64,000 bases of DNA from Sedimentitalea xiamensis (lineage in GTDB: Bacteria > Pseudomonadota > Alphaproteobacteria > Rhodobacterales > Rhodobacteraceae): assembly GCF_030164465.1 (NCBI RefSeq), contig NZ_JASNJE010000025.1, positions 1 to 64,000 on the forward strand, in the 5' to 3' direction. Under the pieces are notes generated by a model, which saw only the letters and a program-made list of their open reading frames with translations, was not told where the DNA came from and did not search any database. Within the stretch, counting starts at the first letter, position 1. Every line of letters starts with the position of its first letter. The translations under genes were made by a program, and so were the position numbers. Below, in pieces: positions 17,446 to 42,206 of the stretch.

Positions 17446-17748
17446 CTATCCTCCTACCAATACCGTGAACTCGCCCTTGAGGATCATCCCGCCGCAACCC
17501 GTGGCATCGCCCAGCCGGGATGCCGGCATCCCCGAGATGATCACCGTGGCCGACCCCATCGCGTTGGGATGCGGACCAAGGCCCGACGGATGCAGATCAC
17601 CGATCCGTGCAGCCGGCAGCTTTCCGACCAGAACGGTCGGCGCGCAAGGCGGAATGATCATGGACGTTCCCGGAACCGGGCCGGCGGGAGACGGCGCGAA
17701 CAGGGCGCACAGCACATTGTCGGTGATCCGGGCCTGCGGTTTGGTCAT
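17446..17748 (-). CDS. PAAR-domain T6SS spike-tip protein
   Basis: The 100-residue PAAR protein is made of short repeats ending in VLVGKLPAARIGD and VIISGMPASRLGD, the hallmark Pro-Ala-Ala-Arg type motifs, with a Cys/His set typical of the Zn-bound cone. It caps the VgrG trimer. There is no C-terminal extension, so it carries no fused toxin. The start overlaps the preceding gene by 4 nt. It is 8 nt upstream of tagH. Confidence 0.92.
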   Translation of the reverse strand: MTKPQARITDNVLCALFAPSPAGPVPGTSMIIPPCAPTVLVGKLPAARIGDLHPSGLGPHPNAMGSATVIISGMPASRLGDATGCGGMILKGEFTVLVGG

Positions 17749-18359
17749 GTGCTTGCCTCCTTTTCCGGCCCGGACACGGACACCCGGCCGTTTCCGCCTT
17801 TTGCGATATCCAGAGCCCGATCGATCAGCAACTGCAAGTGTTCGTCAAACTTATCAGATAGTTCCCCCAGTGCTACCACATTCATCGCGAAAGCCGCCGC
17901 CTCCGACGCTCCGGCGGGCGCCGGATATTGCGCCAGATCCCCCGGCCCGAGCGTGCCGTCCGCGTAGAGCACGGAAATGGCGCAATTCACCGTATCGTCA
18001 TCGACATAGGCATGGTCCAGGGATGCCCGCGCCGCTTCGCGGTTCTCGTCCGTGGGCTTGAAGACCCAGGCCTCGGAGGTGGTCAGGGACAGAGGATCGC
18101 GGTCCGATTTCGGCCCGATGTAGTCCCGCGCGGCCAGACAGGCCCACCACACCCGTTCGCGTGGCGGCAAAAGCACCGCCAGGAGGTGCAGCATGTCGAG
18201 CCAGGCGGATTTGGCATGCAGTTCCGCAAGCACTTCGCTGGCCGGAGCGCTGGCCGGCGCATCCAGCGGAGTCTTCAGCAGGACATTGGCCTGCGCCAGC
18301 AACTTGGCGGCCGGATCGGGCGGCAGTTTGACCAGATCTTTGAATTTCTCAGTCATCAT
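17745..18359 (-). CDS. T6SS-linked protein of unknown function (possibly DUF6931)
   Basis: The 204-residue cytoplasmic-looking protein lacks signal or membrane segments. It is alpha-helical, with conserved-looking LPPRERVWWACLAARDY and a following acidic Trp-containing stretch (TTSEAWVFKPTDENREAA). From memory it resembles the DUF6931 proteins seen beside vgrG/PAAR genes, but I cannot confirm this. Position between vgrG (5 nt) and PAAR (4-nt overlap) suggests an adaptor or chaperone for loading VgrG/PAAR or cargo, as with DUF1795 or DUF4123 proteins elsewhere (inference). Confidence 0.75.
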   Translation of the reverse strand: MMTEKFKDLVKLPPDPAAKLLAQANVLLKTPLDAPASAPASEVLAELHAKSAWLDMLHLLAVLLPPRERVWWACLAARDYIGPKSDRDPLSLTTSEAWVFKPTDENREAARASLDHAYVDDDTVNCAISVLYADGTLGPGDLAQYPAPAGASEAAAFAMNVVALGELSDKFDEHLQLLIDRALDIAKGGNGRVSVSGPEKEAST

Positions 18360-18364
18360 TTCAC

Positions 18365-20545
18365 CTAGTTGATCATGGTCAACCCACCCTTGAGGGTGAG
18401 CATGGCATCGCCCTTGACCGTGGTCATCGCCGCCTTGACCTCGGCCATCGCCTTGGCCTCGAACTTCAGCATCGTGGTCTTGATGGTGACGCTGACAGGG
18501 TCGATCGTGACGGTCGATCCACCGACCTTGAGTTCGATCTTTTGTGCCGCGGTCATGGTGATCTTGCCGGCGCTGACATCCACCGACATGTTTCCGGTCT
18601 TGACGGTCGTCGTCATGTTGCCGGTCTTCACCGTCGTCGCGTCGTTTCCGGTGATCGTCTTGGTGTGTTTGCCCTCGATGGTTTGGGTCTTGTCCTTCTT
18701 GATCTCGAGCGTCTGACTGCCGGTCTCGATCTTGACCGTTTCGTCGCCCTTCTTGATCGAGAAGTCGTGGTCGCCTTCCTTGATGACACGGGTGACGTTC
18801 TGCTTGATGACTTCGCTCAGGCTGCCGTCCTTGACGTCGGCCTTGATCTTTCCCTCAGCGTCCACAAGCTCGTGCTTGTCCAGACCGATGGTCACGGCGG
18901 ACTTGTTCTTGATCAGTTCCTGGTGGTCCTTCTGCGCCTGGATGCGCATCAGTTCCGATCCCTTGAGATCGTCGAACATCAGTTCGTTATATTCATTCTC
19001 CTTGCCCTTTTTTGACGACTTGGTGCGAATGCCAAGCTGCGTCTGATGCGCCGGGAATTCATAGGCCGGTTTCTTCGGCTCGTTATACAGCATGCCAGTG
19101 CAGATCGGCCGGTCTGGATTGCCCTCCTCGAACTGGATCACGACCTCCTGCCCCATCCGGGGCAAGGCGACCATGCCATAGCCGTTGCCGGACCAGGGCG
19201 TCACGACCCGGACCCAGCAGGACGAATTCTCATCCTGCTTGCCCTTGCGGTCCCAATGGAACTGAACCTTGATACGGCCTTGGGCGTCGGTCCAGATTTC
19301 CTCGCCCTTCTTGCCGACCACGGTCGCCGTGTGCAGGCCGGAAATTTCGGGCCATTTCGTGACCTGTGGCGCGCGAAACTCGATGTCCGAAGGAATCGCC
19401 GACAGCATGCACCCATAGGCATCGTCGCTCATCCGACTTGGAAAATCCCGCCGCAAGGCGGTGGTATCCGTCACTTTGCTTCCATCCCGGACGATGTTGT
19501 CCTCCTGCACGAAATGCGTTGCCGTCACCACCAGGTATTTCTTGTTGAAAGACGCGGTTTCATGCCCCTTCAGCGCGAAAGTGTGCCCTGCGGCCAGCGC
19601 CCGGATGTTGCTGTCCCCCATGTAGACCTCGCGTTCGACCGCCAGGGACTGCAACCGGACCTTGGCGAATTGATCGCCCTGCATCTTGGAACCCTCGTAG
19701 TCGTTCTCGATGCGATGGTGGGCCGGGTAATCATAGACCTCGGATTTGGCATGGGCGTGCGTCTTGTGGGGATTGTCGAAATCCCGAAGCATGTTCGCGT
19801 CCGGTTTCATGAAGTCGAAATCCGTCAGGGACACCTTCCCGCTGGTCAGTTTCTCCATCCTCATCCAGTTTTCGGCATGTTCCTCTCCGGCAAAATATTC
19901 GCCTTCGTTCCGGAAGACGATTTCCGCGTGGCCGGGAATCGCCGAATGCGCAGAGCTTGCATCGCCGAGCACCAGTTTCTCCGCCGTCGTCGCATCGGTC
20001 GCATATTGAAAGAAGAAGTAGATGCCTTCCTCTTCCATCAGCCGGCAAAGGAAATCGTAGTCCGTTTCGCGATACTGCACGCAGTAGTTGCGTTTCTTGT
20101 AGTTCTTGTAGGTCAGCTTCTTGGTGTCGAAATCGGAAAATCCGCCATCCCGCAGAACATCCTCGATGATCTCGACCGTCGTCTTGTCCTGAAAGACGCG
20201 GTTATTCTGCCGGCGCGTGAACACCCAGAACCACGGGCGGATCTCGAGAATGTAGTTGTGCCACCCGTTCCAGAACCCGGCCGCCTCCGCGGAAACGCAG
20301 ATCCCCGTGAACATGCGCTGCTTCTTGTTTTCATCCTCCATGTGGATATTCGTCCGCTGACCGACAAGCTTGCCGAGATCGACATCGTCAGCCTTCGAGA
20401 AGACAAGCACTTCGGTTTCGGTGAGTTGACTCAGCCCTTCATGGATCGAAGCCTTGCGCAGAAAGGTTTCGTCTTTCTTGAAACCGGCGCCGGTGAAATC
20501 GCCGGACAGCCAGGTTCGGGCGTTCGGGAAAGTATATTCAGCCAT
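18365..20545 (-). CDS. vgrG: T6SS spike protein VgrG (TssI)
   Basis: The 726-residue protein starts at ATG 20545, with AAAGGA 7 nt upstream; an alternative Met is five codons earlier. It contains the gp27-like and gp5-like OB modules (WVRVVTPWSGNGYGM, PRMGQEVVIQFEEGNPDRP) and a C-terminal beta-helix spine with near-repeats such as VKTGNMTTTVKTGNM. There is no catalytic C-terminal extension. It pierces the target membrane together with PAAR and Hcp. This is the only vgrG in the window. No clear effector/immunity pair follows it. Confidence 0.94.
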   Translation of the reverse strand: MAEYTFPNARTWLSGDFTGAGFKKDETFLRKASIHEGLSQLTETEVLVFSKADDVDLGKLVGQRTNIHMEDENKKQRMFTGICVSAEAAGFWNGWHNYILEIRPWFWVFTRRQNNRVFQDKTTVEIIEDVLRDGGFSDFDTKKLTYKNYKKRNYCVQYRETDYDFLCRLMEEEGIYFFFQYATDATTAEKLVLGDASSAHSAIPGHAEIVFRNEGEYFAGEEHAENWMRMEKLTSGKVSLTDFDFMKPDANMLRDFDNPHKTHAHAKSEVYDYPAHHRIENDYEGSKMQGDQFAKVRLQSLAVEREVYMGDSNIRALAAGHTFALKGHETASFNKKYLVVTATHFVQEDNIVRDGSKVTDTTALRRDFPSRMSDDAYGCMLSAIPSDIEFRAPQVTKWPEISGLHTATVVGKKGEEIWTDAQGRIKVQFHWDRKGKQDENSSCWVRVVTPWSGNGYGMVALPRMGQEVVIQFEEGNPDRPICTGMLYNEPKKPAYEFPAHQTQLGIRTKSSKKGKENEYNELMFDDLKGSELMRIQAQKDHQELIKNKSAVTIGLDKHELVDAEGKIKADVKDGSLSEVIKQNVTRVIKEGDHDFSIKKGDETVKIETGSQTLEIKKDKTQTIEGKHTKTITGNDATTVKTGNMTTTVKTGNMSVDVSAGKITMTAAQKIELKVGGSTVTIDPVSVTIKTTMLKFEAKAMAEVKAAMTTVKGDAMLTLKGGLTMIN

Positions 20546-20608
20546 GAACTGTCCTTTCAAAGCGGACCGGACGGTTGCGCCGGGTGGAAATCGAAAATCT
20601 ATCGGTCA

Positions 20609-23600
20609 TCATAAATCCTCCAGCAACGCCGCCAGATCGGCATCGATATCGCCCGGTGCCGCATCGTCCGGACCCGAGGTATCGGAGTCGTCGAACCCCG
20701 CCAGAAGGTCGTCCAGACCGAGATCGTCCTCCGGCGCTGCCGCGGGTTGCGGCTTGGGTGCCGATGGCGGCGGCGGTTCGACCCCGGACCATGGCCCGAG
20801 AATGTCGCCGCCGGCAAGCGATTGGAAGGACGCGAGCCGGATCTCGTCGCGCCCCTTGATCGACACGACCGGCATCACGCCGCGGGTCATGACCTTTTCC
20901 ACCTTCTCCAGCGTCAGGTTGCGTTCGGTGCAGGGCAAGGCAACCTGATCGCCATGCCGGTCGGTGACGAAATGATAGGGCATGCCCCCAAGCGACATGA
21001 CCGAACCAAGCCCCATGCTGGCGCCGTTCTTGCGGAACGACCGCGCCAGCAGGATGGCGACGAGAACACAGGGGTTGGCCCAAAGCATGCCGCCCAGCCC
21101 CTCCGCCATCGTGAATTCCTCGAACTTGAAGGCATAGATCGGTTCGGATTTTGCGCCGTAGGGGCGGCGCAGCAGGAACCGCGGCGACACCAGGCCCAGA
21201 TACCCGGCTTCCGGCAGGGCGCGCAGGCCGTCCCAGGACGCCGCGACGAGCGGATGGCGATCCTCTTTCGCGATGTCCAGGAACCCCGGCGACAACCCGG
21301 AAACGAACGGTGCATCCACATGCGCCGCGACGCGCGCGATCCGGCCCAGGATCTCCGCATGGGGCGGCGTTTCCTCGAACGTGTAAAGGCCGATCAGGGC
21401 CGAATACCCGCCGCGCCCGGTTTCTTCGTCCAGCGGCGCGCCGGTCAGCATCCGGGCCAGACCGCTCTGTCCAAGATCGGCGGCGGACGCGAGATCGGCG
21501 GCGATTTCTTCGGCCGAAACGTCATAGAGCATGACCTCGAGCGTATCGTCGGTTTCGACGCTGCGCGCGATCAGGTCGATGGACCGCCATTGCGACTCGA
21601 TCGACTGGAATTCCGGATGGTGCAGTATCATCCGCATCGCCGATGACAGCGCGGCGTCCACCGCCGATTGCATCGCGACCGCATCCGCGTCCGGAACCGC
21701 GCGCACATGGGGTCCGACGATCCGCGCCAGCATGTCGTCCAGCGGCGAAGCCTGGGTCAGTTTCGCGGTCGTGTCGCCGATGAGTTTCTGGAAGTCGGTC
21801 AGCTTCAGCCCCGCGGGAACGGCATTGCCCGACGAGGTCCGGCGCGGGGACGACACCGGCGTCCCATGGGCTTCGCCCCAGGCCCGCAGGTCGCGCATCG
21901 CGTTTTCAGCGGTGCCGCCGCTGCCAAGCCGCGCGCGCAGACCGGCGAGTTCGGCGAAGATCTCGACATTCTCGTAAAGCTCGTCCGGGTGAAGATCGTC
22001 CAGCCCGTTCAGCGCGATCTCGACCCCGGCGCCGTCCTGCCCGATGGGCAGCACCAAGCGGGTGGCGAAACCTTCGATCACGTCCTCGACCGTATCGGGA
22101 TCGAGCAGGATGGCCCTGCGGTTGGCCAGGGCATCGCCGGTTTCCAGCACACCGCGCGCCGCACGACCGGAGAAATCACCGAGAATGGCAAGGCGGAATC
22201 GCTTGCGTTTCAAAGCTTCACGGCCTGGACGTTCGGCGGATAAGGTTCCAAAAGCGATCTCCGCATCGCCCGACAGATGCGCTTCGCCTTGTCCGGCGAC
22301 CGGTTCAGGTTCACCGGCACCCAGGTCTCCCAGAAGATCATCCAGATCGTCGCTGGCGGAAGGCGTGTCCTGCTCCGGTTCCGAAAGAAGATCATCAAGG
22401 TCGAAATCGTCGAGGTTGAAATCGTCGGACGCAGGTTCTGTCGCAGCTTCTTGGGCCGGCGCGGGCTCCGGCTCCAGCGCGTCGGATTCAGTCAGCAGGT
22501 CATCCAGATCGAAATCGTCGGATGGGTCAGCCACCACGGACCCGGAAACAGGAACTGGATCCGGCGAATCCGGGTCTGACAAAAGATCATCAAGATCGAA
22601 CTGGTCGGACACAGGTTCCACCGCGGAGTCGGTAGCCGCAACAGGTTCCGGCTTCGATGCATCTGGTTCGTTCTGCAGGCCGTCGAGATCGAAATCGTCG
22701 AGCGCAGGCTCTGTTGAAGCCTCGGGAGCCTGTGCCGGTTCCGCTTCCGGCACGTCGGGTTCCGACAATAGGTCGTCGAGATCGAAATCGTCGGACGCTG
22801 GTTCTGGCGCAGCTTCGGGGGCCGGAGCGGGCTCCGGCTCCGGTTCTTCCGGTTCCGGCAGCAGGTCGTCCAGATCGAAATCGCCATCGGAAAGCTTATC
22901 GGCGGCTTCGGCATTCAGACCAGTGGTCACCCCCTGGTCCCCATCCGGGGCGTCTCGGGAGGCATCGGCCAGATCGGAAAGAATGGCATCCGCCGGGTCC
23001 GTCTTCGTGTCGTCCGCATCGAATTCCGCGAGTCCTGCGAGAATATCCTCTGAATCGTCCGTGGCCGGCTGGTCCTCGACTGGTCTCGCCGCGAGGTCCG
23101 ACAGCACTGTTTCGGCAGACGTTTCGGAGTCCGGGGCAGATTCGGGTTCGGTATTGGCCAGCGTGTCGAGCACAGAGGCCACGGACTCCGGCGACTGCGG
23201 CGCGACGTCCGCGCCGGATGCGGCAAGGTCCGCCAGGACAGAGTCGGGTGTTTCATCAGGACGTTCGGGCGTTTGCGCACCGGCGAGCGCGGACAGGACC
23301 GCATCGCGGTCATCGGTCTCGGGCAGGTCGGTCTCGGGCGCGGCCAGCCCGGCCAGCGTATCGGCGACATCGGTATCGGGCGTGTCATCGTCGGGCGGGG
23401 CGGCCGCACGCAAGCCGTCCAGAACATCGGATTGCGGGTCCGTCTCCGGCGCGGCTGACGTATCCTGTAAGCGCATCTGGTTCAGGATGTCCGCAGTGTC
23501 ATTCTCTGGTTCCGGGTCGGGCGTGCCCCCCCTGGGCAGGGACGCCAGAACGTCATCCGCTGTGGTGTCTGCCTTGGCGGTCGCCTCGGGAGACGCAGAC

Positions 23601-24187
23601 CTCAGGGCAGCCAGAACGTCTCCGGTGGTGTCAGGCGGCGCATTGTCATCCACTTCCAGCGCCCGAAGACTGTCCAGGGCCGCATCGGCGGTGCGCCTTT
23701 CGGTTTGCATCCCCGAAATCGCGCCGAGCAAGGAGGGGTCGGCAAGGATCTTTTCGATCAGCGCCTCTGCTCCCGCTTTGCCGTCCATATAGGCCATCAG
23801 GTCGGAAAGCTGGCTGCGGGCCTCCAGCAGGACGCGTAACGGTTCGATTCTGGCCGCGATCGCGCCGGGCGAAAAATCGTCCATCTTCTCGAACGTCAGA
23901 TCGACGTTCAGGTTGCCTTCGCCGGTGAGCGTGTTCGGCACCGAGAACGCCACCCGCGGCTGCATCGCCTTCATCCGGTCATCGAACGTATCCACGTCGA
24001 TTTCCAGGAAGCGGCGGTCGTCGATCGCTGGCTGTGCAGCATTGGACTTGCCCGAAAGGTCGGACAGGACGCCCATCACGAACGGCAGCTGAACCTTCTT
24101 TTCGGAACCGTAGAGTTCTACATCGTATTCGATCTGGACCCGTGGCGCGCGGTTCCTCGCGATGAATTTCTGCGATTCTCCGGTCAT
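20609..24187 (-). CDS. TssB - acidic repeat linker - TssB/TssC-like sheath fusion protein
   Basis: The protein is 1192 residues. Residues 1-160 are a TssB/VipA sheath subunit very close to the canonical TssB at 34198-34710 (shared ARNRAPRVQIEYDVELYG, VPNTLTGEGNL, EARSQLS). About 185-620 is a disordered acidic region with about 18 short D-x-L-x-x-L motifs (a separate entry lists them). From about 660 comes a second small-subunit-like segment (FRLAILGDFSGR), then a TssC/VipB-like domain (HPEFQSIESQWRSIDLIA near 860 aligns with HAEFQQMESAWRG of canonical TssC). It ends in an acidic tail with DDLGLDDLLAGF. The start overlaps the ion-channel stop as ATGA. The role is not established; a sheath cap, regulator or alternative sheath are possible. 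Both canonical tssB and tssC also exist in the operon. Confidence 0.88.
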   Translation of the reverse strand: MTGESQKFIARNRAPRVQIEYDVELYGSEKKVQLPFVMGVLSDLSGKSNAAQPAIDDRRFLEIDVDTFDDRMKAMQPRVAFSVPNTLTGEGNLNVDLTFEKMDDFSPGAIAARIEPLRVLLEARSQLSDLMAYMDGKAGAEALIEKILADPSLLGAISGMQTERRTADAALDSLRALEVDDNAPPDTTGDVLAALRSASPEATAKADTTADDVLASLPRGGTPDPEPENDTADILNQMRLQDTSAAPETDPQSDVLDGLRAAAPPDDDTPDTDVADTLAGLAAPETDLPETDDRDAVLSALAGAQTPERPDETPDSVLADLAASGADVAPQSPESVASVLDTLANTEPESAPDSETSAETVLSDLAARPVEDQPATDDSEDILAGLAEFDADDTKTDPADAILSDLADASRDAPDGDQGVTTGLNAEAADKLSDGDFDLDDLLPEPEEPEPEPAPAPEAAPEPASDDFDLDDLLSEPDVPEAEPAQAPEASTEPALDDFDLDGLQNEPDASKPEPVAATDSAVEPVSDQFDLDDLLSDPDSPDPVPVSGSVVADPSDDFDLDDLLTESDALEPEPAPAQEAATEPASDDFNLDDFDLDDLLSEPEQDTPSASDDLDDLLGDLGAGEPEPVAGQGEAHLSGDAEIAFGTLSAERPGREALKRKRFRLAILGDFSGRAARGVLETGDALANRRAILLDPDTVEDVIEGFATRLVLPIGQDGAGVEIALNGLDDLHPDELYENVEIFAELAGLRARLGSGGTAENAMRDLRAWGEAHGTPVSSPRRTSSGNAVPAGLKLTDFQKLIGDTTAKLTQASPLDDMLARIVGPHVRAVPDADAVAMQSAVDAALSSAMRMILHHPEFQSIESQWRSIDLIARSVETDDTLEVMLYDVSAEEIAADLASAADLGQSGLARMLTGAPLDEETGRGGYSALIGLYTFEETPPHAEILGRIARVAAHVDAPFVSGLSPGFLDIAKEDRHPLVAASWDGLRALPEAGYLGLVSPRFLLRRPYGAKSEPIYAFKFEEFTMAEGLGGMLWANPCVLVAILLARSFRKNGASMGLGSVMSLGGMPYHFVTDRHGDQVALPCTERNLTLEKVEKVMTRGVMPVVSIKGRDEIRLASFQSLAGGDILGPWSGVEPPPPSAPKPQPAAAPEDDLGLDDLLAGFDDSDTSGPDDAAPGDIDADLAALLEDL
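22320..23640 (-). repeat. protein-level array of D-x-L-x-x-L motifs in the sheath fusion
   Basis: Two tandem classes occur. About residues 190-420 carry 11 copies of the form D-[VI]-L-x-x-L spaced 20-30 residues apart (DVLAALRSA, DVLASLPR, DILNQMRL, DVLDGLRAA, and so on to DAILSDLADA). About residues 434-615 carry 6-7 copies of DFDLDDLLSEP followed by Pro/Glu-rich spacers. Similar motifs appear at the very C-terminus. The regular amphipathic motif in an otherwise acidic, disordered chain suggests multivalent docking sites or short helices. Confidence 0.8.
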
Positions 24188-30697: not shown

Positions 30698-31195
30698 CTA
30701 CCGGCTCCTTTCCACGGAAACTTCACCCGTGATCACATCGACCTGGCTGCGAAGATACAGTTCCAGCGGCATCGGCTGCGCCCACATGTCCGCCCTGATG
30801 ATCAGGGCCACCGTCATGCCCCCGCTCTTGTCGTCCGGGCTGAGGCTCACGTCGACGGATCCCTTGATGATCCGTGGCTCGTGGGTCGCGATCGCCTGTT
30901 CGATCGATTTCCGGATCATTTCCGAACGCATGGCGGTGGAATATTCACCGGACACCTCGCGCAGCCCGTAGTTCACGACGGATCGCGCGACATTCGGCAT
31001 GGCTTCGGCATCGAAGGACCGTTCGATGTTGTGCGTGTTCAGCAGCCAGGACAGGTCGCGCTGGATGATGTCACGCAATCGCCCGATGTCGATGACACGG
31101 GATTCCCGTGTTTCTTTCAGATCGCCGGGCGCATTGTCCGTCAACCTGTCCAGCAAGGACGGCTGCAAGCGTTCGGCAATGGTCTTGTCAGCCAT
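30698..31195 (-). CDS. tssE: T6SS baseplate gp25-like subunit TssE
   Basis: The 165-residue gp25/TssE lysozyme-like-fold protein has LLDRLTDNAPGD and RLRDIIQRDLSWLLNTHN, followed by YGLREVSGEYS. It is the baseplate component contacting the first sheath ring. The gene overlaps tagJ by 8 nt. It is cytoplasmic and of normal length. Confidence 0.93.
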   Translation of the reverse strand: MADKTIAERLQPSLLDRLTDNAPGDLKETRESRVIDIGRLRDIIQRDLSWLLNTHNIERSFDAEAMPNVARSVVNYGLREVSGEYSTAMRSEMIRKSIEQAIATHEPRIIKGSVDVSLSPDDKSGGMTVALIIRADMWAQPMPLELYLRSQVDVITGEVSVERSR

Positions 31196-32009
31196 TGCCG
31201 GGCGCCCCTCCGTCCATGGCGGCGCCCTCCATCGACAGGCTTCGGATGTCCAGAATGGCGTAGTCCGCCTGATCCGTCGTCAGAAGCCGCTGACCACCGC
31301 CGACAAATGTCTCGCCGCCCAGGTCGGTCCAGGTCGTCGCGCGGGCCAGTTTGGCGGCTGCGTCGCCATTGACCGTCGTGCCGACGTAGCGGGTGGGAAT
31401 CAGGGCCGCGACCTCGCCGCCGTTCTGCAGCGAAAGGGTCGCCGCCGTCCAGACCGCATCGCGAAGATCGGAAGGCGGGTCCATCGTCAAGGAGCCGATC
31501 GACGTGAACGGCAGCCAGAAATAGCGGCCATTGACGATGATCTCGAGAACCGGACCAAGGCGCATATCGGCATCGGCGACCCATTCGAACGGATCATCGT
31601 TGATATGGCCCGAACAGGACGGGGCGGCGTCAAAGGCCCGCGCCCGCAAATCCGCCGCCTTGTCCGGAGCACCGGAAGCCAGGGTTTTCTGGGCTTCGAC
31701 GAGAAGCGCCAACCATTCTGCGGGTTCGCCGAAGATCAGCGGGTCCTTCTCGCCGAGGAAGACCTTTTCGCGATAGACTTCACAGATGATCGCCTCGCGG
31801 TAGGTCTTGGCCATCATCGTGGCGGATTCGTCCATTTCCGCGCTCAGCTTCAGCTGATTGATCGCGCGTTTCCAGTCCCCCAGAACGCAAAGGAGCTGGA
31901 ACAGGAATATCCTGAGCTTCGGGTTCGCCGGATCGGCGCGCACCTTGTCCTGCAGGGCCGCAAGCGCCGCATCCGGATCGCCGGATTTCAGAAGGTCTTC
32001 TGGGGTCAT
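31188..32009 (-). CDS. tagJ: T6SS accessory protein TagJ (ImpE)
   Basis: The 273-residue protein starts at ATG 32009 (MTPEDLLKSGDPDAALAALQ). A longer in-frame opening would run back into the hairpin behind hcp. TPR-like helices fill the N-terminal half, followed by the ImpE domain (PSDLRDAVWTAATLSLQNGG, LIPTRYVGT). TagJ binds the TssB N-terminal helix and modulates ClpV-dependent sheath recycling in P. aeruginosa. Its presence may relate to the two TssB-type proteins encoded here. The gene overlaps tssE by 8 nt. Confidence 0.92.
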   Translation of the reverse strand: MTPEDLLKSGDPDAALAALQDKVRADPANPKLRIFLFQLLCVLGDWKRAINQLKLSAEMDESATMMAKTYREAIICEVYREKVFLGEKDPLIFGEPAEWLALLVEAQKTLASGAPDKAADLRARAFDAAPSCSGHINDDPFEWVADADMRLGPVLEIIVNGRYFWLPFTSIGSLTMDPPSDLRDAVWTAATLSLQNGGEVAALIPTRYVGTTVNGDAAAKLARATTWTDLGGETFVGGGQRLLTTDQADYAILDIRSLSMEGAAMDGGAPGNG

Positions 32010-32040
32010 CAGCTGTATCCGAATTTCAGGGGGCTGACAT

Positions 32041-32069
32041 GACACCCCGACGCGGAACGTCGGGGTGTC
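32041..32069 (-). terminator. hairpin between hcp and tagJ (attenuator or 3' stabiliser)
   Basis: A perfect 12-bp inverted repeat (GACACCCCGACG / CGTCGGGGTGTC) with a 5-nt loop begins 19 nt past the hcp stop. No U-tract follows on the minus strand, so full termination is not expected. It could cause partial termination, or block 3' exonucleases, so that hcp and upstream mRNA exceed the downstream T6SS mRNA. Confidence 0.6.
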
Positions 32070-32087
32070 GCGCCATGGACTTGCCAA

Positions 32088-32694: not shown

Positions 32695-34188
32695 TTAACC
32701 CTTTTCCGAAGGCAGTTTGGACACCAGCCGCAAGGACACGGTAAGCCCTTCCAGCTGATAGTGGGGGCGGAGGTAGAATTTCGACGAGTAGTAGCCGGGA
32801 TTGCCCTCCACTTCTTCGACAACGACTTCGGCGGACGCGAGTGGTTTTTGCGCCTTCACCTTTTCGTTGGACACGTCTGCATTGGTGTCCACGTAGTTGC
32901 TGATCCAGGTCTGCAACCAGGACTGCATGTCGTTGCGGCTCTTGAACGACCCGATCTTGTCGCGGACCATGCATTTCATGTAATGCGCGAAGCGGCAGGT
33001 CGCGAACAGATACGGCAGGCGGGCCGCCAAGTTGGCGTTGGCCGTCGCATCCGGGTCGTCATATTCGGCTGGCTTGTGCAGCGATTGCGCGCCGATGAAG
33101 GCCGCCAGGTCCGAATTCTTGCGGTGAATCAGAGGCATCATCCCGTTCTTGGCCAGTTCCGCCTCGCGACGGTCCGAGATCGCGATCTCGGTCGGGCATT
33201 TCTGATCCACGCCACCGTCGTCGGTGGGAAAGGTGTGACTGGGCAGGTTTTCCAGCGCGCCGCCGCTTTCAACGCCGCGAATGCGCGAACACCAGCCGTA
33301 TTCCTTGAAGGACCGGTTGATGTTTACCGCCATGCCATAGGCCGCGTTGACCCAGCCGTACTTGCTGCTGTCCGCGCCCTCGGTGTCTTCCTCGAAGGCG
33401 AAGGCCTCGACCGGGTCGGTCTTTGACCCGTAGGGCAGACGGCCCAGGAACCGTGGCATCGCAAGGCCGACGTATTTGGAATCCTCGCTTTCGCGCAGCG
33501 ACCGCCAGGAGGCGTATTCCGGCGTCTGGAAGATCTTTGTCAGATCGCGCGGGTTCGCCAGTTCGCTCCAGCTGTCCATCTGGAAGAGGCTGGGCTGCGC
33601 GCCGGTGATCAGCGGCGCATGGGCGGCGGCAGCGATCTTCGACATCTCCGTCAGCAACTCTACATCCGGCGGACTGTGATCGAAGTGATAATCGGCGACC
33701 AGCGTGCCATAGGGTTCACCGCCGAACTGGCCGAATTCCTCTTCGTAGATCTTCTTGAAGATCGGCGACTGGTCCCAGGCGGTGCCTTTGAACTTGCGCA
33801 GGGTCTTGTGCATGTCCTTCTTGCTGATGTTCATCACCCGGATTTTCAGCATTTCATCCGTTTCGGTGTTGTTCACCAGGTAGTGCAGGCCACGCCAGGC
33901 GCTTTCCATCTGCTGGAATTCGGCGTGGTGCAGGATCAGGTTGACCTGTTCCGTCAGTTTCTTGTCGAGTTCCGCCACGATGCTTTCGATCGACCGCAAC
34001 GCATCGTCCGAAACGAGTGCCGTGTTGGCGAGCGCCTGCTGGGCCAGGGTCTTGACCGCGGTTTCGACCGCTGTCTTGGCCTGGTCCGATTTGGGACGGA
34101 ATTCCTTTTGCAGCAGATCGGCGAATTCGGAGGATCCGAAGGCGGTGGCTGCACCGCCGGCTTCTGCCTGGGCTTGTTCTTCGGCCAT
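32695..34188 (-). CDS. tssC: T6SS sheath large subunit TssC (VipB)
   Basis: The 497-residue TssC has HHAEFQQMESAWRGLHYLVN, then FGQFGGEPYGTLVADYHFDH and the C-terminal region FYLRPHYQLEGLTVSLRLVS. It pairs with TssB to form the contractile sheath, and its N-terminal helix is the usual ClpV target. The gene lies 9 nt after tssB. A TssC-like module also forms the C-terminal half of the fusion protein at 20609-24187. Confidence 0.96.
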   Translation of the reverse strand: MAEEQAQAEAGGAATAFGSSEFADLLQKEFRPKSDQAKTAVETAVKTLAQQALANTALVSDDALRSIESIVAELDKKLTEQVNLILHHAEFQQMESAWRGLHYLVNNTETDEMLKIRVMNISKKDMHKTLRKFKGTAWDQSPIFKKIYEEEFGQFGGEPYGTLVADYHFDHSPPDVELLTEMSKIAAAAHAPLITGAQPSLFQMDSWSELANPRDLTKIFQTPEYASWRSLRESEDSKYVGLAMPRFLGRLPYGSKTDPVEAFAFEEDTEGADSSKYGWVNAAYGMAVNINRSFKEYGWCSRIRGVESGGALENLPSHTFPTDDGGVDQKCPTEIAISDRREAELAKNGMMPLIHRKNSDLAAFIGAQSLHKPAEYDDPDATANANLAARLPYLFATCRFAHYMKCMVRDKIGSFKSRNDMQSWLQTWISNYVDTNADVSNEKVKAQKPLASAEVVVEEVEGNPGYYSSKFYLRPHYQLEGLTVSLRLVSKLPSEKG

Positions 34189-34197
34189 CTGTCTCTC

Positions 34198-34710
34198 CTA
34201 TTCTTCGTCGCTGTCGGCTTTGGGGGCCGGCTGGGCGGCAAGGGTCTTCAGCAGGGCCGGGTCGGTGATGATCTTGCTGATCAGGTCCTCGGCGCCGGTC
34301 TTCCCGTCCATGTAGGTCATCAGGTTGGAAAGCTGGCTGCGCGCCTCGAGCAGTTCCCGCAGCGGTTCGACCTTGGCCGCAATCGCGGCGGGCGAAAAAT
34401 CGTCCATGCTTTCGAAGGTGATATCCACCGCGAGATTGCCTTCGCCGGTGAGCGTATTCGGCACCGTGAACGCGGCGCGCGGCTTCATCGATTTCATCCG
34501 GTCATCGAAATTGTCCACGTCGATTTCAAGAAACTTCCGGTCAGCGACGCTTGGCTGAGGAACTTCGGACTTGCCGGCCAGATCGCTCATCACGCCCATG
34601 ACGAAGGGCAACTGGACTTTCTTCTCGGCCCCGTAGAGTTCGACGTCATATTCGATCTGAACCCTCGGCGCGCGATTTCGCGCTATGAATTTCTGTGAAC
34701 TATCGGCCAT
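34198..34710 (-). CDS. tssB: T6SS sheath small subunit TssB (VipA)
   Basis: The 170-residue TssB shares SQKFIARNRAPRVQIEYDVE, LPFVMGV and VPNTLTGEGNL with the N-terminus of the fusion protein, showing a recent within-locus duplication. Length is normal. It forms the sheath with TssC and is the partner of TagJ. It starts 70 nt downstream of tssA. Confidence 0.95.
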   Translation of the reverse strand: MADSSQKFIARNRAPRVQIEYDVELYGAEKKVQLPFVMGVMSDLAGKSEVPQPSVADRKFLEIDVDNFDDRMKSMKPRAAFTVPNTLTGEGNLAVDITFESMDDFSPAAIAAKVEPLRELLEARSQLSNLMTYMDGKTGAEDLISKIITDPALLKTLAAQPAPKADSDEE

Positions 34711-37836: not shown

Positions 37837-38460
37837 ATGCCGGTCACTTTCCAGGACCTTGGCGCGGGGGCAACTATCATTGCGGTGCTGGCCCTGCTTT
37901 CCCTTCTTTCCTGGGTCCTGATCGTGGTCAAGATCCTTCAACTCTGGCGCTGCCGGTCCGGGGGCAAACTTCGAACGGAGGCATTCGGGCTATGGCGGAA
38001 GGGCGAGAAGGATGCCGCCAGGGCAGCTCTGGAAAAGGGAAGATCGCCGGCCGACCGGACAACGTCCTATGCGATGGGCGCTCTGCAACGCGGTCTTGGC
38101 GGACCAGCTCTTGAGGCCGAACTTGCCCGACGCGGGAACGAAGAGATCGCCCGGCTGACCGGTATGATCCGGATCCTGGAACTGATCGCCATGGTGTCGC
38201 CCCTGCTGGGCCTGCTCGGGACGGTTCTGGGCATGATACAGTCGTTCCAGGAACTGGAGATGGCGCAGGGCGCAGCCAATGCGTCGGTTCTCGCCGGGGG
38301 GATCTGGCAGGCGTTGCTGACGACCGCGGCGGGGCTGCTGGTCGCCATTCCGGCGGCCGTCGCGGCGGGTCTGTTTTCCGCCCGCATCGACAATGCCGCG
38401 CAGACGATCGAGAGCGCCGTGGGCCGGTTGTTGCTGATCGAGGACCACCCGAACGCCTGA
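37837..38460 (+). CDS. exbB: MotA/TolQ/ExbB-family proton-channel subunit
   Basis: The 207-residue protein has three transmembrane helices (about 10-30, 110-135, 155-180). The ExbB/TolQ core is ELIAMVSPLLGLLGTVLGMI followed by GIWQALLTTAAGLLVAIPA. It forms the pentameric stator that, with ExbD dimers, uses the proton-motive force. Here its partners are two tandem ExbD genes and a TonB-like-positioned protein. The placement beside the T6SS suggests a dedicated energiser rather than general TonB function (inference). Confidence 0.9.
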   Translation: MPVTFQDLGAGATIIAVLALLSLLSWVLIVVKILQLWRCRSGGKLRTEAFGLWRKGEKDAARAALEKGRSPADRTTSYAMGALQRGLGGPALEAELARRGNEEIARLTGMIRILELIAMVSPLLGLLGTVLGMIQSFQELEMAQGAANASVLAGGIWQALLTTAAGLLVAIPAAVAAGLFSARIDNAAQTIESAVGRLLLIEDHPNA

Positions 38461-38483
38461 ACCTGGACGGGAGACAGGGCCAA

Positions 38484-38906
38484 ATGGCCGGATATCCGAC
38501 ACTTCGAAGACCGCGCGCGCAGGGACAGCTGATTTCGCTGGTTCCGATGATCGACGTGATGCTGATCCTGCTCGTGTTCTTCATGGTGACTTCGACCTAT
38601 CTCGACCTCGACATGATCCCCGCCGTGCGCCAGCGGGACGCGACGTCCGGCGCATCGGACGCGACCGCCGGGACGGTGCTGATCAGATTGGCCTCTGATG
38701 GCGTGCCCGTGGTGAGGGGCGTTGCACAGACCGACGGTGCCCTCGCCGCTTTTCTGGCGGCGGAACTGGCGGAGACGCCGCTGACACAGGTTCTGATCCT
38801 GCCGTCCGGCGCGGCCACGACGCAATCCCTGATTTCCGTCATGGATACGGCCACCCGCGCCGGTGCGACCCGACTGCGTGTCATCCGGCTGGAGGCGCGC
38901 CCATGA
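38484..38906 (+). CDS. exbD: ExbD/TolR-family protein, first copy
   Basis: The 140-residue protein has a short cytoplasmic N-terminus, then a TM helix with the essential Asp: VPMIDVMLILLVFFMVTS (about 20-38). A periplasmic domain follows, with the typical LPSGAATTQSLISVMD. It partners ExbB in proton-driven work. It overlaps the second exbD gene by 4 nt. Confidence 0.9.
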   Translation: MAGYPTLRRPRAQGQLISLVPMIDVMLILLVFFMVTSTYLDLDMIPAVRQRDATSGASDATAGTVLIRLASDGVPVVRGVAQTDGALAAFLAAELAETPLTQVLILPSGAATTQSLISVMDTATRAGATRLRVIRLEARP

Positions 38907-39319
38907 AGCTGAACAGGATCAGGCGCAATCCACATTCCGAAACGATTATTGCCCTGATCGATGTCGTCTTTTTCCTGCTGGTCTTTTTCATGCTGATCGG
39001 ACGCATGGATGCGACCGCGCCGTTCGATGTGACGCCGCCGCTGGCTGTCAGCGGGCGTGACATGCCCGCGGGCGGCGCGACCCTGTCCATCTCGCGCGAT
39101 GGCGCCCTGGCTCTGGACGGCACGGAAATCGCCGGGTCCGATCTGGAGGCTGCGCTGTCCCGGGCGCTCGACCGGGACGCCAACCTGCGCCTGCGTATCA
39201 ATGCGCACAAGGATGCGGAGTTGCGGCACGTTCTGCCCTTGGTCGGGATGGCGGAAGCGATTGGCATTGCGGATGTCGTTCTGGTGGTCACGCCCGCCGC
39301 CGGGCCGGATGCCGGATGA
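38903..39319 (+). CDS. exbD: ExbD/TolR-family protein, second copy
   Basis: The 138-residue protein has TM helix IALIDVVFFLLVFFMLIG (about 16-33) with the conserved Asp, and a periplasmic domain ending LVGMAEAIGIADVVLVV. Two tandem ExbDs probably form a heterodimer in the ExbB pore. It overlaps both neighbours by 4 nt. Confidence 0.9.
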   Translation: MKLNRIRRNPHSETIIALIDVVFFLLVFFMLIGRMDATAPFDVTPPLAVSGRDMPAGGATLSISRDGALALDGTEIAGSDLEAALSRALDRDANLRLRINAHKDAELRHVLPLVGMAEAIGIADVVLVVTPAAGPDAG

Positions 39320-40725
39320 CGGGACGCACCGCCATATGGATTGCGGGGCTGGGTGCATCCGTGACCCTCCATGTCGCGGCCATAGGCGCGTTGCCGGTTC
39401 TTCTGAAACCTGACCCGATCACGCAGCAACAACCGCCCCGCAGCGAACTTGACGTGCAGGCCTATCAACTGGACCGCAGTCAGGCCCGCCGGCACCAGCC
39501 CGACGCGGAGGCCGCCGCCCGCGTGGACGCGGAAACGACGGCTGCGGCGTCAAGCGGGATACCGGCCACGCGGGCGGAGCCTGCGGCCATCGCGCCTGTC
39601 CCGACGGCATTGACGAAGCCGGTCAATCCGGATGTCGCCAAGGCCGCCAGGCCACAAACCGCCTTGCAACGGCCCTTGGGGCTGGACCCCATGAACGTCG
39701 GGGCAAGCGATCGCGCGGGAGAGCGGCTGACCTTGGCACAGCCGGAAATCCGGCCGGCGCGCGTGGCGGTCGCGGACGCCGCCACGGTCGAACAGACCAC
39801 ACCGGAGACCTCGCGCACCGAGGCAGCACCGCCGCCGGGTCAGACCGTTTCGCTGTCCGATCCCGACCTGACGCCAGCCGTCTCACTGGAACAGGATGCT
39901 GTTTCCCTCACCGCTGCCCTGGCGTTTTCCGGCGAAGGATCGGACCAGATCGATCCGAAATCGCTGGCGGCCTTCCAGAGTTTCACGCGCCCCGAGGACA
40001 GCGGCCTTCAGGGCGACACGCTGCGCGACGGGGTCGGCGCCCTGCTGTCGCAGGTTCCGTGTTCACGGCTCCAGGTTTCGTTCGATCCAGATTCCGCGAC
40101 CCTGCAAGTGAACGGGCATGTTCCGGACGCTGACCTGCGTGGCCCCGTTCTGGCAGCCCTGCAAACGCAGATGGGAACGGACATCGCCCTGTCGGACAGT
40201 ATCCGGATCCTTCCGAGGCCGCAATGTGGCGCACTCGCGGGTATTTCGAACGTGGGGCTGGCCCAGTCCACGGATCAGAACACCAACCCGCTGGTCATCG
40301 GCGCGGACGCGCAGGCCAGGGTGCTGACATTCGTCAAGGACGACCGACTGTTCTTCGACCTGACAGCGCCGGACTACGACGCCTATGTGTATGTGGACTA
40401 TTTCGACGCCGGCGGAAATGTCCTGCACCTCGTACCAAACGAACAGTCCTCCATCAGCCTCGTGCCAGCGGAAACGCCTTTTCGGGTGGGTGCCAGAGAC
40501 GAAAACGATACGGGGTTGCAGATCTTCGTGGGGCCGCCCTATGGGCAGGAGATCGTTGTCGCCTTTGCGGCATCGAGCCTACTTTATGACGAAACACGCC
40601 CCCTGGTGGAACCTGCCGCGGATTATCTGGCATGGCTCAAAGATCGCGTCGCCCGCGCCCGCCGGAGCGACCCCGGCTTCAAGGGCGAATGGGTCTACTT
40701 CCTTGTTGTAACGACAGCGACCTAG
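39316..40725 (+). CDS. membrane-anchored periplasmic protein with DUF4384-like C-terminus
   Basis: The 469-residue protein has an N-terminal TM anchor (about 5-32), then a long Pro/Ala/Thr-rich periplasmic linker (about 35-200), as in TonB/TolA. A BON-like segment (about 235-310; VNGHVPDADLRGPVL) is followed by a DUF4384-like domain (about 340-469; VYVDYFDAGGNVLHLVPN, PYGQEIVVAFAAS). Position directly after exbB-exbD-exbD (4-nt overlap) suggests it is the TonB-like transducer of that motor. The same C-terminal domain forms the periplasmic part of PpkA. Its stop overlaps the convergent caspase gene's stop at CTAG. Confidence 0.8.
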   Translation: MTGRTAIWIAGLGASVTLHVAAIGALPVLLKPDPITQQQPPRSELDVQAYQLDRSQARRHQPDAEAAARVDAETTAAASSGIPATRAEPAAIAPVPTALTKPVNPDVAKAARPQTALQRPLGLDPMNVGASDRAGERLTLAQPEIRPARVAVADAATVEQTTPETSRTEAAPPPGQTVSLSDPDLTPAVSLEQDAVSLTAALAFSGEGSDQIDPKSLAAFQSFTRPEDSGLQGDTLRDGVGALLSQVPCSRLQVSFDPDSATLQVNGHVPDADLRGPVLAALQTQMGTDIALSDSIRILPRPQCGALAGISNVGLAQSTDQNTNPLVIGADAQARVLTFVKDDRLFFDLTAPDYDAYVYVDYFDAGGNVLHLVPNEQSSISLVPAETPFRVGARDENDTGLQIFVGPPYGQEIVVAFAASSLLYDETRPLVEPAADYLAWLKDRVARARRSDPGFKGEWVYFLVVTTAT

Positions 40726-42206
40726 GGGCAGCCACCGGCGGCCCAGATTTTCAGGTTGCGCTTCAGAGCGCCACCGAAGGGGTGTTTCTTGTCCAGCGAT
40801 CGCTGCATGTTGAGACTGAGATAGGAGTTGGCCTGGGTGCACAGGCGATCCTGCGTCCATTGATGGCAGTTTGAACAGGACTTGTCTTTCCAGTATTCGT
40901 CCGGAAGCCCATCGACCGGGGGAAAAAGCGGTGACATCTTGATGATATCCGCGATGGATTTGCCGGATAGATCGGAGAGTTCCGAAGAAATGGCCGAAGT
41001 GAAAGTGACGGTTTCTGCCGGTTGCACGGTGAGTGGCGGCGTTGCGGCAAGCGCGGTGTCCGGCGCGGGCGTTACGCCTTCTCCGATCGGGTCGGTTCCG
41101 TTCTTCTTGCGCAGCGCGACGATTTCCCCGGCCGCGAATTCCGCGAACACGCCGTCGGGAAACGCCTTCAGAAAACTTTCGTATCCTGCGATGCTGGCCT
41201 CTGCCTGCGCCGTTTCGAACATCTTCCGTTCTGCTTCTGACGGGCCCTTGGCCACTGGCACAGGTTTCGGAGCAGATGGATCCGTCAGTTCCTTTTCCAT
41301 CAGCACCGCCAGCAAGGCGCGGGCGTCCTGCGCATAGGCGCCTTCTGGATACCCGCGCAGAAACAACATGATCTGAACCGGATCTCCCGAGGCCTGCACC
41401 GATTTCCAAAGCTGGAGTTCCTGCAATTGTTCCGGCGACATGGGTTCTTCTTCTGCAAAGACAAAGTCGCTGGTCAGGGACGATGCATCCCAGGGTGTCT
41501 GTTGTCCTTTCGTTTTCTCGATCACCTCGACCCTGACATTCTTGAACATCTGCTCGATCCGCAAACCGGGCGTGGTCATCTGCGTTGCCATGGAACGGGT
41601 GAACGGGCTGTTTCCTTCGGTGCCGTCCAACGCGACGCCGCCCGGTGCGGTCGCGTAGGCCAGGAACGTACCCGTTGGGGCCTGCATCTCGGCCAGGCCA
41701 TTGTCATTGAATTCGAGGATGTCGCTGAAGGGGTTGTTGCGGCACGCATCGAGGATCACGATATTGGTCTTGTTGCGCGCAGAAAACATCTGTCGCAAGA
41801 CAGACTGGGCTTCGACCGCGACGAGATCGAGATCCGCCGCGTTGCTCAGGGCGACATCGACGGGCAACAGGTAGTTGGTTCCAAAAGACTGCACCCCATG
41901 CCCGGCATAGTAGAACAACCCCGTCGCATCCGGGCCGGCATCACGCAGGTCGCGGCCGAATTGTGAAATGCTGCGTTTCATGTCATTTTGTGTGCCGTCC
42001 AGCAGCAACATGACCGTGAAGCCCAGATCTTCGAGCGTGCCGGCGATCAGACGCGCATCGTGAGACGGGTTATCCAGTGGCGACACGGTTCCGTAGCCGG
42101 AGTTTCCGATCACCAGCGCCAACCTGTCCTGAGCAGAGACCGGAGCAGCCACCAAAAGAAGAAAACACCAAAGCCGGAGAATAAGTTTCACACGAAATAC
42201 CTGCAT
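40722..42206 (-). CDS. secreted caspase-like (C14) protein with C-terminal CxxCH motif
   Basis: The 494-residue protein has a signal peptide to about residue 25 (APVSAQD). The caspase-like domain has His103 (YYAGHGVQ) and Cys155 (ILDACRNNP). A Pro/Ala-rich middle carries short helical segments (about 250-350). The last 55 residues contain CSNCHQW, a c-type-heme-like CxxCH, plus two or three more Cys (RLCTQ, AAGGCP). The start at 42206 lacks a strong ribosome binding site; a GTG five codons later is possible. It is paralogous to the protein of 2854-4356 in the protease part only. Heme attachment is unproven; the Cys set could instead bind metal or form disulphides. Confidence 0.8.
   Translation of the reverse strand: MQVFRVKLILRLWCFLLLVAAPVSAQDRLALVIGNSGYGTVSPLDNPSHDARLIAGTLEDLGFTVMLLLDGTQNDMKRSISQFGRDLRDAGPDATGLFYYAGHGVQSFGTNYLLPVDVALSNAADLDLVAVEAQSVLRQMFSARNKTNIVILDACRNNPFSDILEFNDNGLAEMQAPTGTFLAYATAPGGVALDGTEGNSPFTRSMATQMTTPGLRIEQMFKNVRVEVIEKTKGQQTPWDASSLTSDFVFAEEEPMSPEQLQELQLWKSVQASGDPVQIMLFLRGYPEGAYAQDARALLAVLMEKELTDPSAPKPVPVAKGPSEAERKMFETAQAEASIAGYESFLKAFPDGVFAEFAAGEIVALRKKNGTDPIGEGVTPAPDTALAATPPLTVQPAETVTFTSAISSELSDLSGKSIADIIKMSPLFPPVDGLPDEYWKDKSCSNCHQWTQDRLCTQANSYLSLNMQRSLDKKHPFGGALKRNLKIWAAGGCP

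Follow-up and report, generated by a model that had tools for sequence, protein, structure and literature searches.

The window analysed here (the whole stretch of 64,000 nucleotides, positions 1 to 64,000 of contig NZ_JASNJE010000025.1 of Sedimentitalea xiamensis) carries a type VI secretion system (T6SS) cluster in which one long gene encodes a protein of 1192 residues that is almost certainly TssCL, a sheath-protein fusion found in roseobacters and some related bacteria beside the two normal sheath proteins. In Pfam searches the protein consists, in this order, of a TssB domain, a long acidic linker and a single-chain TssB-like/TssC-like core. The domain matches and the structure model together show the predicted core as one chain built like a TssB/TssC protomer that has neither the TssC C-terminal domain nor the N-terminal TssB strand, and phylogenetic analyses suggest that this core probably stood alone and predates the fusion. 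Judged from sequence comparisons, the protein most likely has an accessory role in the turnover or assembly of the sheath. The gene, its parts and the separate sheath genes of the cluster are as follows.

20609..24187, minus strand: TssCL-type fusion gene, 1192 residues, a single open frame with Pfam/NCBIfam domains
23711..24187, minus strand: N-terminal TssB domain, residues 1-159, with the TagJ-docking epitope SQKFIARNRAPRVQ and 76% identity to the separate TssB
22895..23710, minus strand: linker zone 1, approximately residues 160-431 (border drawn by eye), D-x-[VA]-L-x-x-L-type repeats
22268..22894, minus strand: linker zone 2, approximately residues 432-640, DFDLDDLL-type repeats
21926..22201, minus strand: second, weak TssB-like stretch within the C-module, residues 663-754, PF05591 positions 27-120, E 7e-7
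20816..21667, minus strand: TssC N-terminal-domain-like stretch, residues 841-1124, PF05943 with no PF18945 behind it
20693..20716, minus strand: tail motif 1, LDDLLAGF, residues 1158-1165, found in 65 of 65 tail-bearing proteins
20612..20644, minus strand: tail motif 2, DADLAALLEDL, residues 1182-1192, the extreme C-terminus, found in 63 of 65 tail-bearing proteins
32695..34188, minus strand: separate tssC, carrying EFADLL near its N-terminus (residues 21-26, nucleotides 34111-34128)
34198..34710, minus strand: separate tssB (Pfam)

PF05591 matched the fusion at residues 10-157 (whole-protein E 1.2e-62) and again at the second, weak stretch, and PF05943 matched residues 841-1124 with an E-value of 3.3e-45. 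PF18945, the gpW/gp25-like handshake domain of the TssC C-terminus, was not found in the fusion at E-values up to 1; the separate TssC of the cluster has it, and the separate TssB and TssC are both complete. The original prediction had read the protein as a TssB-linker-TssB/TssC-like fusion beside intact tssB and tssC, and had proposed a search with these three domains; the single open frame, the TssB/TssC homology in the second half and the completeness of the separate genes all bear this reading out. The N-terminal TssB had also been called nearly identical to the separate TssB, which overstates an identity of 76% (121 of 159 residues); the TssC-like part is far more distant, with 31% identity to the separate TssC over 305 columns. 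The NCBIfam models agree with this picture, TIGR03358 (TssB) scoring above its cut-off (198 vs 97.25 bits) and TIGR03355 (TssC) below it (140.9 vs 271.5 bits). Throughout the genome PF05591 was found at three places and PF05943 at two, all within the T6SS cluster. In eleven pairs of sequences (four with the window, seven among relatives) the ratio of nonsynonymous to synonymous substitution rates (dN/dS) was 0.01-0.15 for the TssB part, 0.03-0.20 for the core (C-module), 0.08-0.53 for the tail and 0.15-0.31 for the linker, which could be computed in 8 of the 11 pairs; all these values are rough, because dS exceeds 1 and is saturated in several pairs. The linker diverges fast (36-44% identity between the window and four relatives).

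A T6SS component of this build had been thought undescribed, which the literature corrects: the same domain order was published in 2022 in Front Microbiol as TssCL, from Leisingera, Ruegeria and Tateyamaria (PMC9515649), and among open-licence PubMed Central (PMC) papers the name was found only there. The published TssCL has two VipA domains and one VipB domain, the first VipA being near the TssB of the cluster (86% identity in strain ANG-M7) and the second distant; its clusters keep tssB and tssC, and the roseobacter T6SS is likened to H1-T6SS (PMC9515649). The window protein is of the same kind, with PF05591 twice and PF05943 once in a single chain, a first TssB that is close to the separate one over its 159 residues and a second that matches the family only distantly, and separate tssB and tssC genes in a cluster that also contains impE and FHA genes; its nearest rows belong to Rhodobacterales. 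Going beyond what is published for TssCL in the main text of PMC9515649, where the words "linker", "repeat" and "disordered" do not occur, we found unfused cores at the base of the tree, a betaproteobacterial core, the missing PF18945, the repeat linker, the tail motifs and the loss of TssB. New here are the core without PF18945, the probable core-first history, the loss or decay of the TssB end, and linker and tail motifs that within the cluster are shared with TssC only.

In the TssB1C1 sheath, the TssC C-terminal domain and the N-terminal TssB strand knit neighbouring subunits together (PMC5807055). The fusion resembles this canonical sheath (5n8n; PMC5807055) in the fold of its core and in its TssB end, but its core is a single chain, has no TssC C-terminal domain, and is accompanied by a long repeat linker and a tail. 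A canonical TssC contains PF18945 and scores above the cut-off of TIGR03355, neither of which holds for the core. Single-chain sheath proteins of AFP, PVC, R-pyocin and phages also rank among the nearest known systems, and those of AFP, PVC and R-pyocin can be aligned to the core model from about model residue 20 to 498. Agrobacterium and Rhizobium likewise pair a normal TssC with a second protein of TssC type, TssC40/ImpD, and Agrobacterium TssC40 is listed as required for Hcp secretion (PMC3702570). Membership of the fusion in this group was ruled out on one Rhizobium example (L062 7351-8736, named ImpD by gene order; G and L numbers are our labels for genomes and loci), which is a full TssC with PF18945 and has no TssB part (no PF05591), the reverse of the C-module.

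An assembly error joining two genes had been named as what could undo the prediction, and it was ruled out by the distribution of the protein. The full C-module (E < 1e-200) was present in 37 of the 390 genomes of the window's order (Rhodobacterales, judged from the relatives of the window), its own genome included, and 32 of the 37 have an intact extra TssB, one has a degenerate one (G036) and four have none (G042, G066, G227 and G274). A single open frame spans both parts in 27 of these 32 genomes; for the other five (G360, G038, G265, G186 and G153), where the halves are on different contigs or at the two ends of the same contig, we infer the fusion. Residues 1 to 1136 of the query also match, in two pieces, the complete plasmid record NZ_CP127249.1. 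Three more of the 390 genomes have a distant relative of the C-module (E 1e-61 to 1e-69), and a search of 398 genomes of the phylum brought up two others (G708 and G507). A scan of the genome contigs with the whole protein gave 54 loci, 49 of them with the C-module: in 37 a TssB is in the same frame (one of these, L008, is cut at a contig end and another, L016, is degenerate), in 9 the contig ends before the place of TssB, and 3 are complete and unfused (L009, L046 and L047). Of the remaining five, two are cut before the C-module (L052 and L053) and three contain only ordinary tssB and tssC (L056-L058). The linker repeats perhaps break assemblies, the halves of the gene being separated in 5 of the 37 genomes. 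In the Parasedimentitalea psychrophila plasmid (L061 20001-23750) the annotated sheath gene starts at 20502, and the TssB part is missing from the annotation because this start lies 501 bases past the match to residue 1.

Unfused cores occur at the same place in the gene order as the fusion, from clpV (with or without the channel gene described below) to vgrG, in L009, L046, L047, L100, L101 and L102. The betaproteobacterium Eleftheria terrae has an unfused core beside tssK in a T6SS cluster, with 39% identity to the core of the window. Four further unfused cores are single-chain sheath-core proteins without a tail (L104 7855-9414, L106 6858-8345, L107 7808-9280 and L108 8155-9663), and no other match to the T6SS proteins of the window was found across the 16-18 kb around them. 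Two core trees were built, with 56 and 53 rows, both rooted on distant unfused rows that we picked; they omit L025, L028, L030, L031, L032, L034, L035, L036, L039 and L048 (mostly further Leisingera), L104 and L105 are only in the 53-row tree, and G274 is in neither. In trees so rooted the unfused cores were basal. The 56-row tree, in which 7 rows are unlabelled and G153 (L109) is marked as fused despite having its TssB on a different contig, requires a minimum of four switches between the fused and the unfused state, and the 53-row tree three. The fork between L046, L102, the L047 group and the rest was unresolved in the 56-row tree and had support of 91/81 and 91/82 in the 53-row tree; the fused clade of G064 and G153 groups with the unfused L047, and L009 and L100/L101 are unfused within fused clades. 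Because unfused cores are basal and one occurs in a betaproteobacterium, the core probably existed before the fusion did. This history differs from the one in PMC9515649, where TssCL is treated as a TssB-TssC fusion confined to Alphaproteobacteria and a recent fusion of sheath genes is proposed, since the core tree favours a core that preceded the fusion.

The TssB tree comprised 84 rows, after G708_C, L016_F, G186x_C, G036x_C, L062_C and G507_C had been dropped as long or distant (all six are in a quick TssB tree, and the degenerate TssB of G036 is in neither the 84-row tree nor the site table below). One group (98/89) unites 29 fused TssBs from the main roseobacter clade, and other fused TssBs group with canonical TssBs, e.g., that of G073 (100/97) and those of Roseibium (94/83). 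In none of 200 bootstrap trees were all fused TssBs grouped together. Repeated capture of TssB is likely but not established, because the approximately unbiased (AU) test does not reject a single clade of fused TssBs (p 0.169).

Among the 97 near-invariant sites of canonical TssB (defined from 42 rows; the site table is without the six rows dropped above and L060_C), 76 are shared by 90% or more of 41 fused copies, and for 16 the share is below 80%. In the region of the C-terminal helix, L117, L120, A123, R124, L127, L130 and YMDGK are kept in all fused TssBs, and P116, N129 and T132 are not. The TagJ-binding epitope, defined as a stretch of HsiB1 (PMC4239648), was seen in 35 of the 37 fused loci, the exceptions being L008, which is cut before the epitope, and the degenerate L016. 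In L016 and G036 the TssB has decayed, with linker, core and tail retained, and the protein of G274 (L183 2840-7066, 1409 residues) starts directly in the linker repeats without any TssB, its core beginning at about residue 852, which leaves a linker of about 850 residues at the start of the protein. The original prediction had the sheath protein co-polymerise through its TssB end while tethering another sheath-like unit, so that it could cap, time or couple sheath assembly. Co-polymerisation is plausible, given the kept sites and the epitope, but the essential function is probably something other than tethering through TssB, because TssB is decayed or missing in lineages that retain linker, core and tail.

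The linkers range from 83 to 1007 residues, with 27-38% aspartate plus glutamate (36 linkers), and most consist mainly of leucine repeats, D-x-V-L-x-x-L in a first zone and DLDDLL in a second. In the linker of the window D-x-[VA]-L-x-x-L has 12 matches vs 0.7 in shuffles and DLDDLL 6 vs 0.0, and zone 2 contains a DNA tandem repeat (22676-22883, period 93). Across the 36 linkers, a set that takes in near relatives, composition-keeping shuffles give far fewer matches (LDxLL 342 vs 22.5, DLDDLL 172 vs 2.3, DxVLxxL 763 vs 61). A full-length AlphaFold2 model of the fusion, made from 17 sequences, has a mean predicted local distance difference test score (pLDDT) of 52 and a predicted template modelling score (pTM) of 0.41, and shows zone 1 as short helices of low confidence. 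The tails were surveyed in 70 proteins including that of the window, five distant ones being without a tail. Tail motif 2 follows the pattern DxxLAALLxxL, and the two of the 65 tail-bearing proteins that do not match it have close variants. By eye, the linker repeats of Roseibium (L041) resemble tail motif 2, and the unfused L046 repeats tail motif 1 within its own tail.

The motifs resemble a short sequence near the N-terminus of TssC. We scanned the T6SS proteins of the window and part of the related loci, where C-module rows were excluded, for the pattern [DE][LFIM][DASEGN][DASEN]LL; in the window it occurs at 7 places in the fusion and once in TssC (EFADLL, residue 21), and it was not found in the other T6SS proteins or the kinase (19 cluster proteins and the kinase scanned). 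After shuffling, the pattern averages 0.12 matches in the fusion and at most 0.06 in each of the other 18 cluster proteins; the kinase was left unshuffled. Among relatives, [DE]F[AS]xLL is present in 14 of 17 complete TssC N-termini, the exceptions being near forms in L006 and L056 and, in L058, a protein that seemingly starts at the wrong codon. HsiC1 of Pseudomonas aeruginosa has EFASLL at residues 21-26, and VipB of Vibrio cholerae has the ClpV-binding LLDEIM at residues 19-24 (PMC4239648).

From these observations a possible course of events can be drawn. An unfused core would have existed first, beside clpV and vgrG; a TssB would later have been added by way of the acidic linker, to be lost or to decay again in places. 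TssCL would associate with the sheath or with free sheath subunits through its TssB end, which retains most of the residues that contact TssC and TagJ, or through its core, or both. The many copies of motifs of the type [DE]-[L/F]-x-x-L-L in linker and tail, a pattern also found near the TssC N-terminus, might bind or compete for whatever reads that N-terminus, most likely the disassembly machinery, i.e., ClpV, perhaps with TagJ, and TssCL could so tune the timing and speed of sheath disassembly and reuse. That TssCL is an accessory protein which presents many peptides like the TssC N-terminus and tunes sheath turnover is a tentative proposal, with the odds somewhat against it. Its more specific form, which casts TssCL as a multivalent mimic of the TssC N-terminus, with a non-knitting core, a tail and motif array that gather or distract the recycling machinery, and a tie to the sheath through a TssB captured probably more than once, we regard as rather unlikely; a regulator of sheath turnover of this kind was not found described in open-licence PMC papers.

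Several points weigh against the proposal. The pattern, including its F/I/M alternatives, was chosen after the motifs of TssC and HsiC1 had been seen, so the resemblance to TssC is a lead only, and the tail patterns were likewise written after the tails had been viewed. In the other loci the pattern was found in 8 of 17 TssC rows (some of them cut off and one an ImpD), in 2 of 9 TssM and 1 of 8 TssA, and in no other listed family. The shuffle comparison of the linkers draws in part on near relatives; leucine/acidic motifs are almost nil in the linkers of L044, L045 and L055 and few in those of L024, L041 and L042, and L009 keeps core and tail without linker and TssB. Tandem expansion is a cheap route to acidic leucine repeats. 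Finally, the ClpV of the window, with Arg6 and Asp87, is of the ClpV1 class; the groove of ClpV1 is reported to be blocked, and HsiC1 lacking its first 33 residues still binds ClpV1 (PMC4239648). Taking the motifs for classical ligands of the ClpV groove is therefore not supported.

Minor sheath paralogues may cap the sheath in other contractile systems, and the core of TssCL, which lacks both knitting elements and keeps the rest of the fold, might in the same way dock at the sheath end or baseplate and halt polymerisation, with TssB end and linker as its anchor. The alignment with single-chain sheaths and the vgrG adjoining the gene in the window are consistent with such a cap or terminator, but the motif array and a linker of 83-1007 residues would be superfluous for capping, no structural match points specifically to a cap protein, and some unfused cores (L104 and L106-L108) lie in stretches without other T6SS matches; we consider a cap doubtful. 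A role as a cytoplasmic assembly chaperone or sink, whose TssB end holds TssC (and TagJ) while core and array prevent subunits from coming together before assembly is due, seems improbable as well. It would account for the conservation of most TssB residues that contact TssC and TagJ, and in Agrobacterium TssB and TssC41 stabilise each other (PMC3702570), but G274 has no TssB end, and in G036 and L016 it is decayed, despite the retention of linker, core and tail in all three, and the unfused forms do without it altogether.

Coupling to the membrane, in which TssCL would tie the state of the sheath to the sodium-channel-like protein encoded next to it and depolarisation would alter firing, appears very unlikely. 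The channel gene directly adjoins the fusion or C-module gene, on its upstream side, in 32 of the 37 genomes (34 of 39 loci with a readable upstream side), and in the window the two genes overlap; the survey of co-occurrence that had been suggested thus found the association usual but not obligatory, five of the 37 genomes with the C-module having no adjacent channel, three of them with a fused gene, which rules out the channel as an obligate partner, and the channel also accompanies unfused cores (L009, L046, L047 and L102 of G227). That the protein is a functionless relic of gene duplication, as fast linker divergence and the decay or loss of TssB in L016, G036 and G274 might suggest, is hardly credible, with dN/dS far below 1 in the TssB and core parts and tail motif 1 retained in every tail-bearing protein.

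With an accessory role in sheath turnover or assembly as the preferred reading, the question shifts from why TssB was fused to TssC to the role of an arm-less sheath core and the reader of its tail motifs. TssC of the ClpV1 class has a conserved N-terminal motif (PMC4239648), and TssCL, rich in like motifs, may offer a handle on sheath recognition and recycling.

On the minus strand the genes of the cluster are ordered tssA, tssB, tssC, hcp, tagJ, tssE, tssF, tssG, tssH/clpV, the ion channel, the fusion and vgrG, followed by the DUF6931 gene, an FHA gene, tssK, tssL, tssM, tagF and PP2C; a protein kinase gene lies beyond PP2C on the plus strand. The neighbours discussed here are the following.

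31188..32087, minus strand: tagJ/impE, PF07024
25077..27779, minus strand: tssH/clpV, identified by its domains, with Arg6, Phe10, Ile85 and Asp87 as in P. aeruginosa ClpV1 (PMC4239648)
24184..25047, minus strand: bacterial voltage-gated sodium-channel-like gene, PF00520, sharing 4 nt with the start of the fusion gene
18365..20560, minus strand: vgrG, directly downstream of the fusion gene (Pfam)
17745-18359: DUF6931 gene, downstream of vgrG

The best sequence match of the channel gene in the PDB was 5hvx_A (NavMs; E 6.8e-82). Most genomes of the set have a further channel match elsewhere, in the genome of the window at C33:79738-80469 with 53% identity, and in Limibaculum (L046 8480-9787) the channel gene encodes 436 residues with two Ion_trans stretches. 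The DUF6931 gene was ruled out as a specific partner, being present in 92 of the 390 genomes compared with 37 for the C-module. Past tssA, at 37837-42206, lie MotA/TolQ/ExbB-like, DUF4384 and caspase-like genes, and like genes stand beside the cluster of Parasedimentitalea psychrophila (L061).

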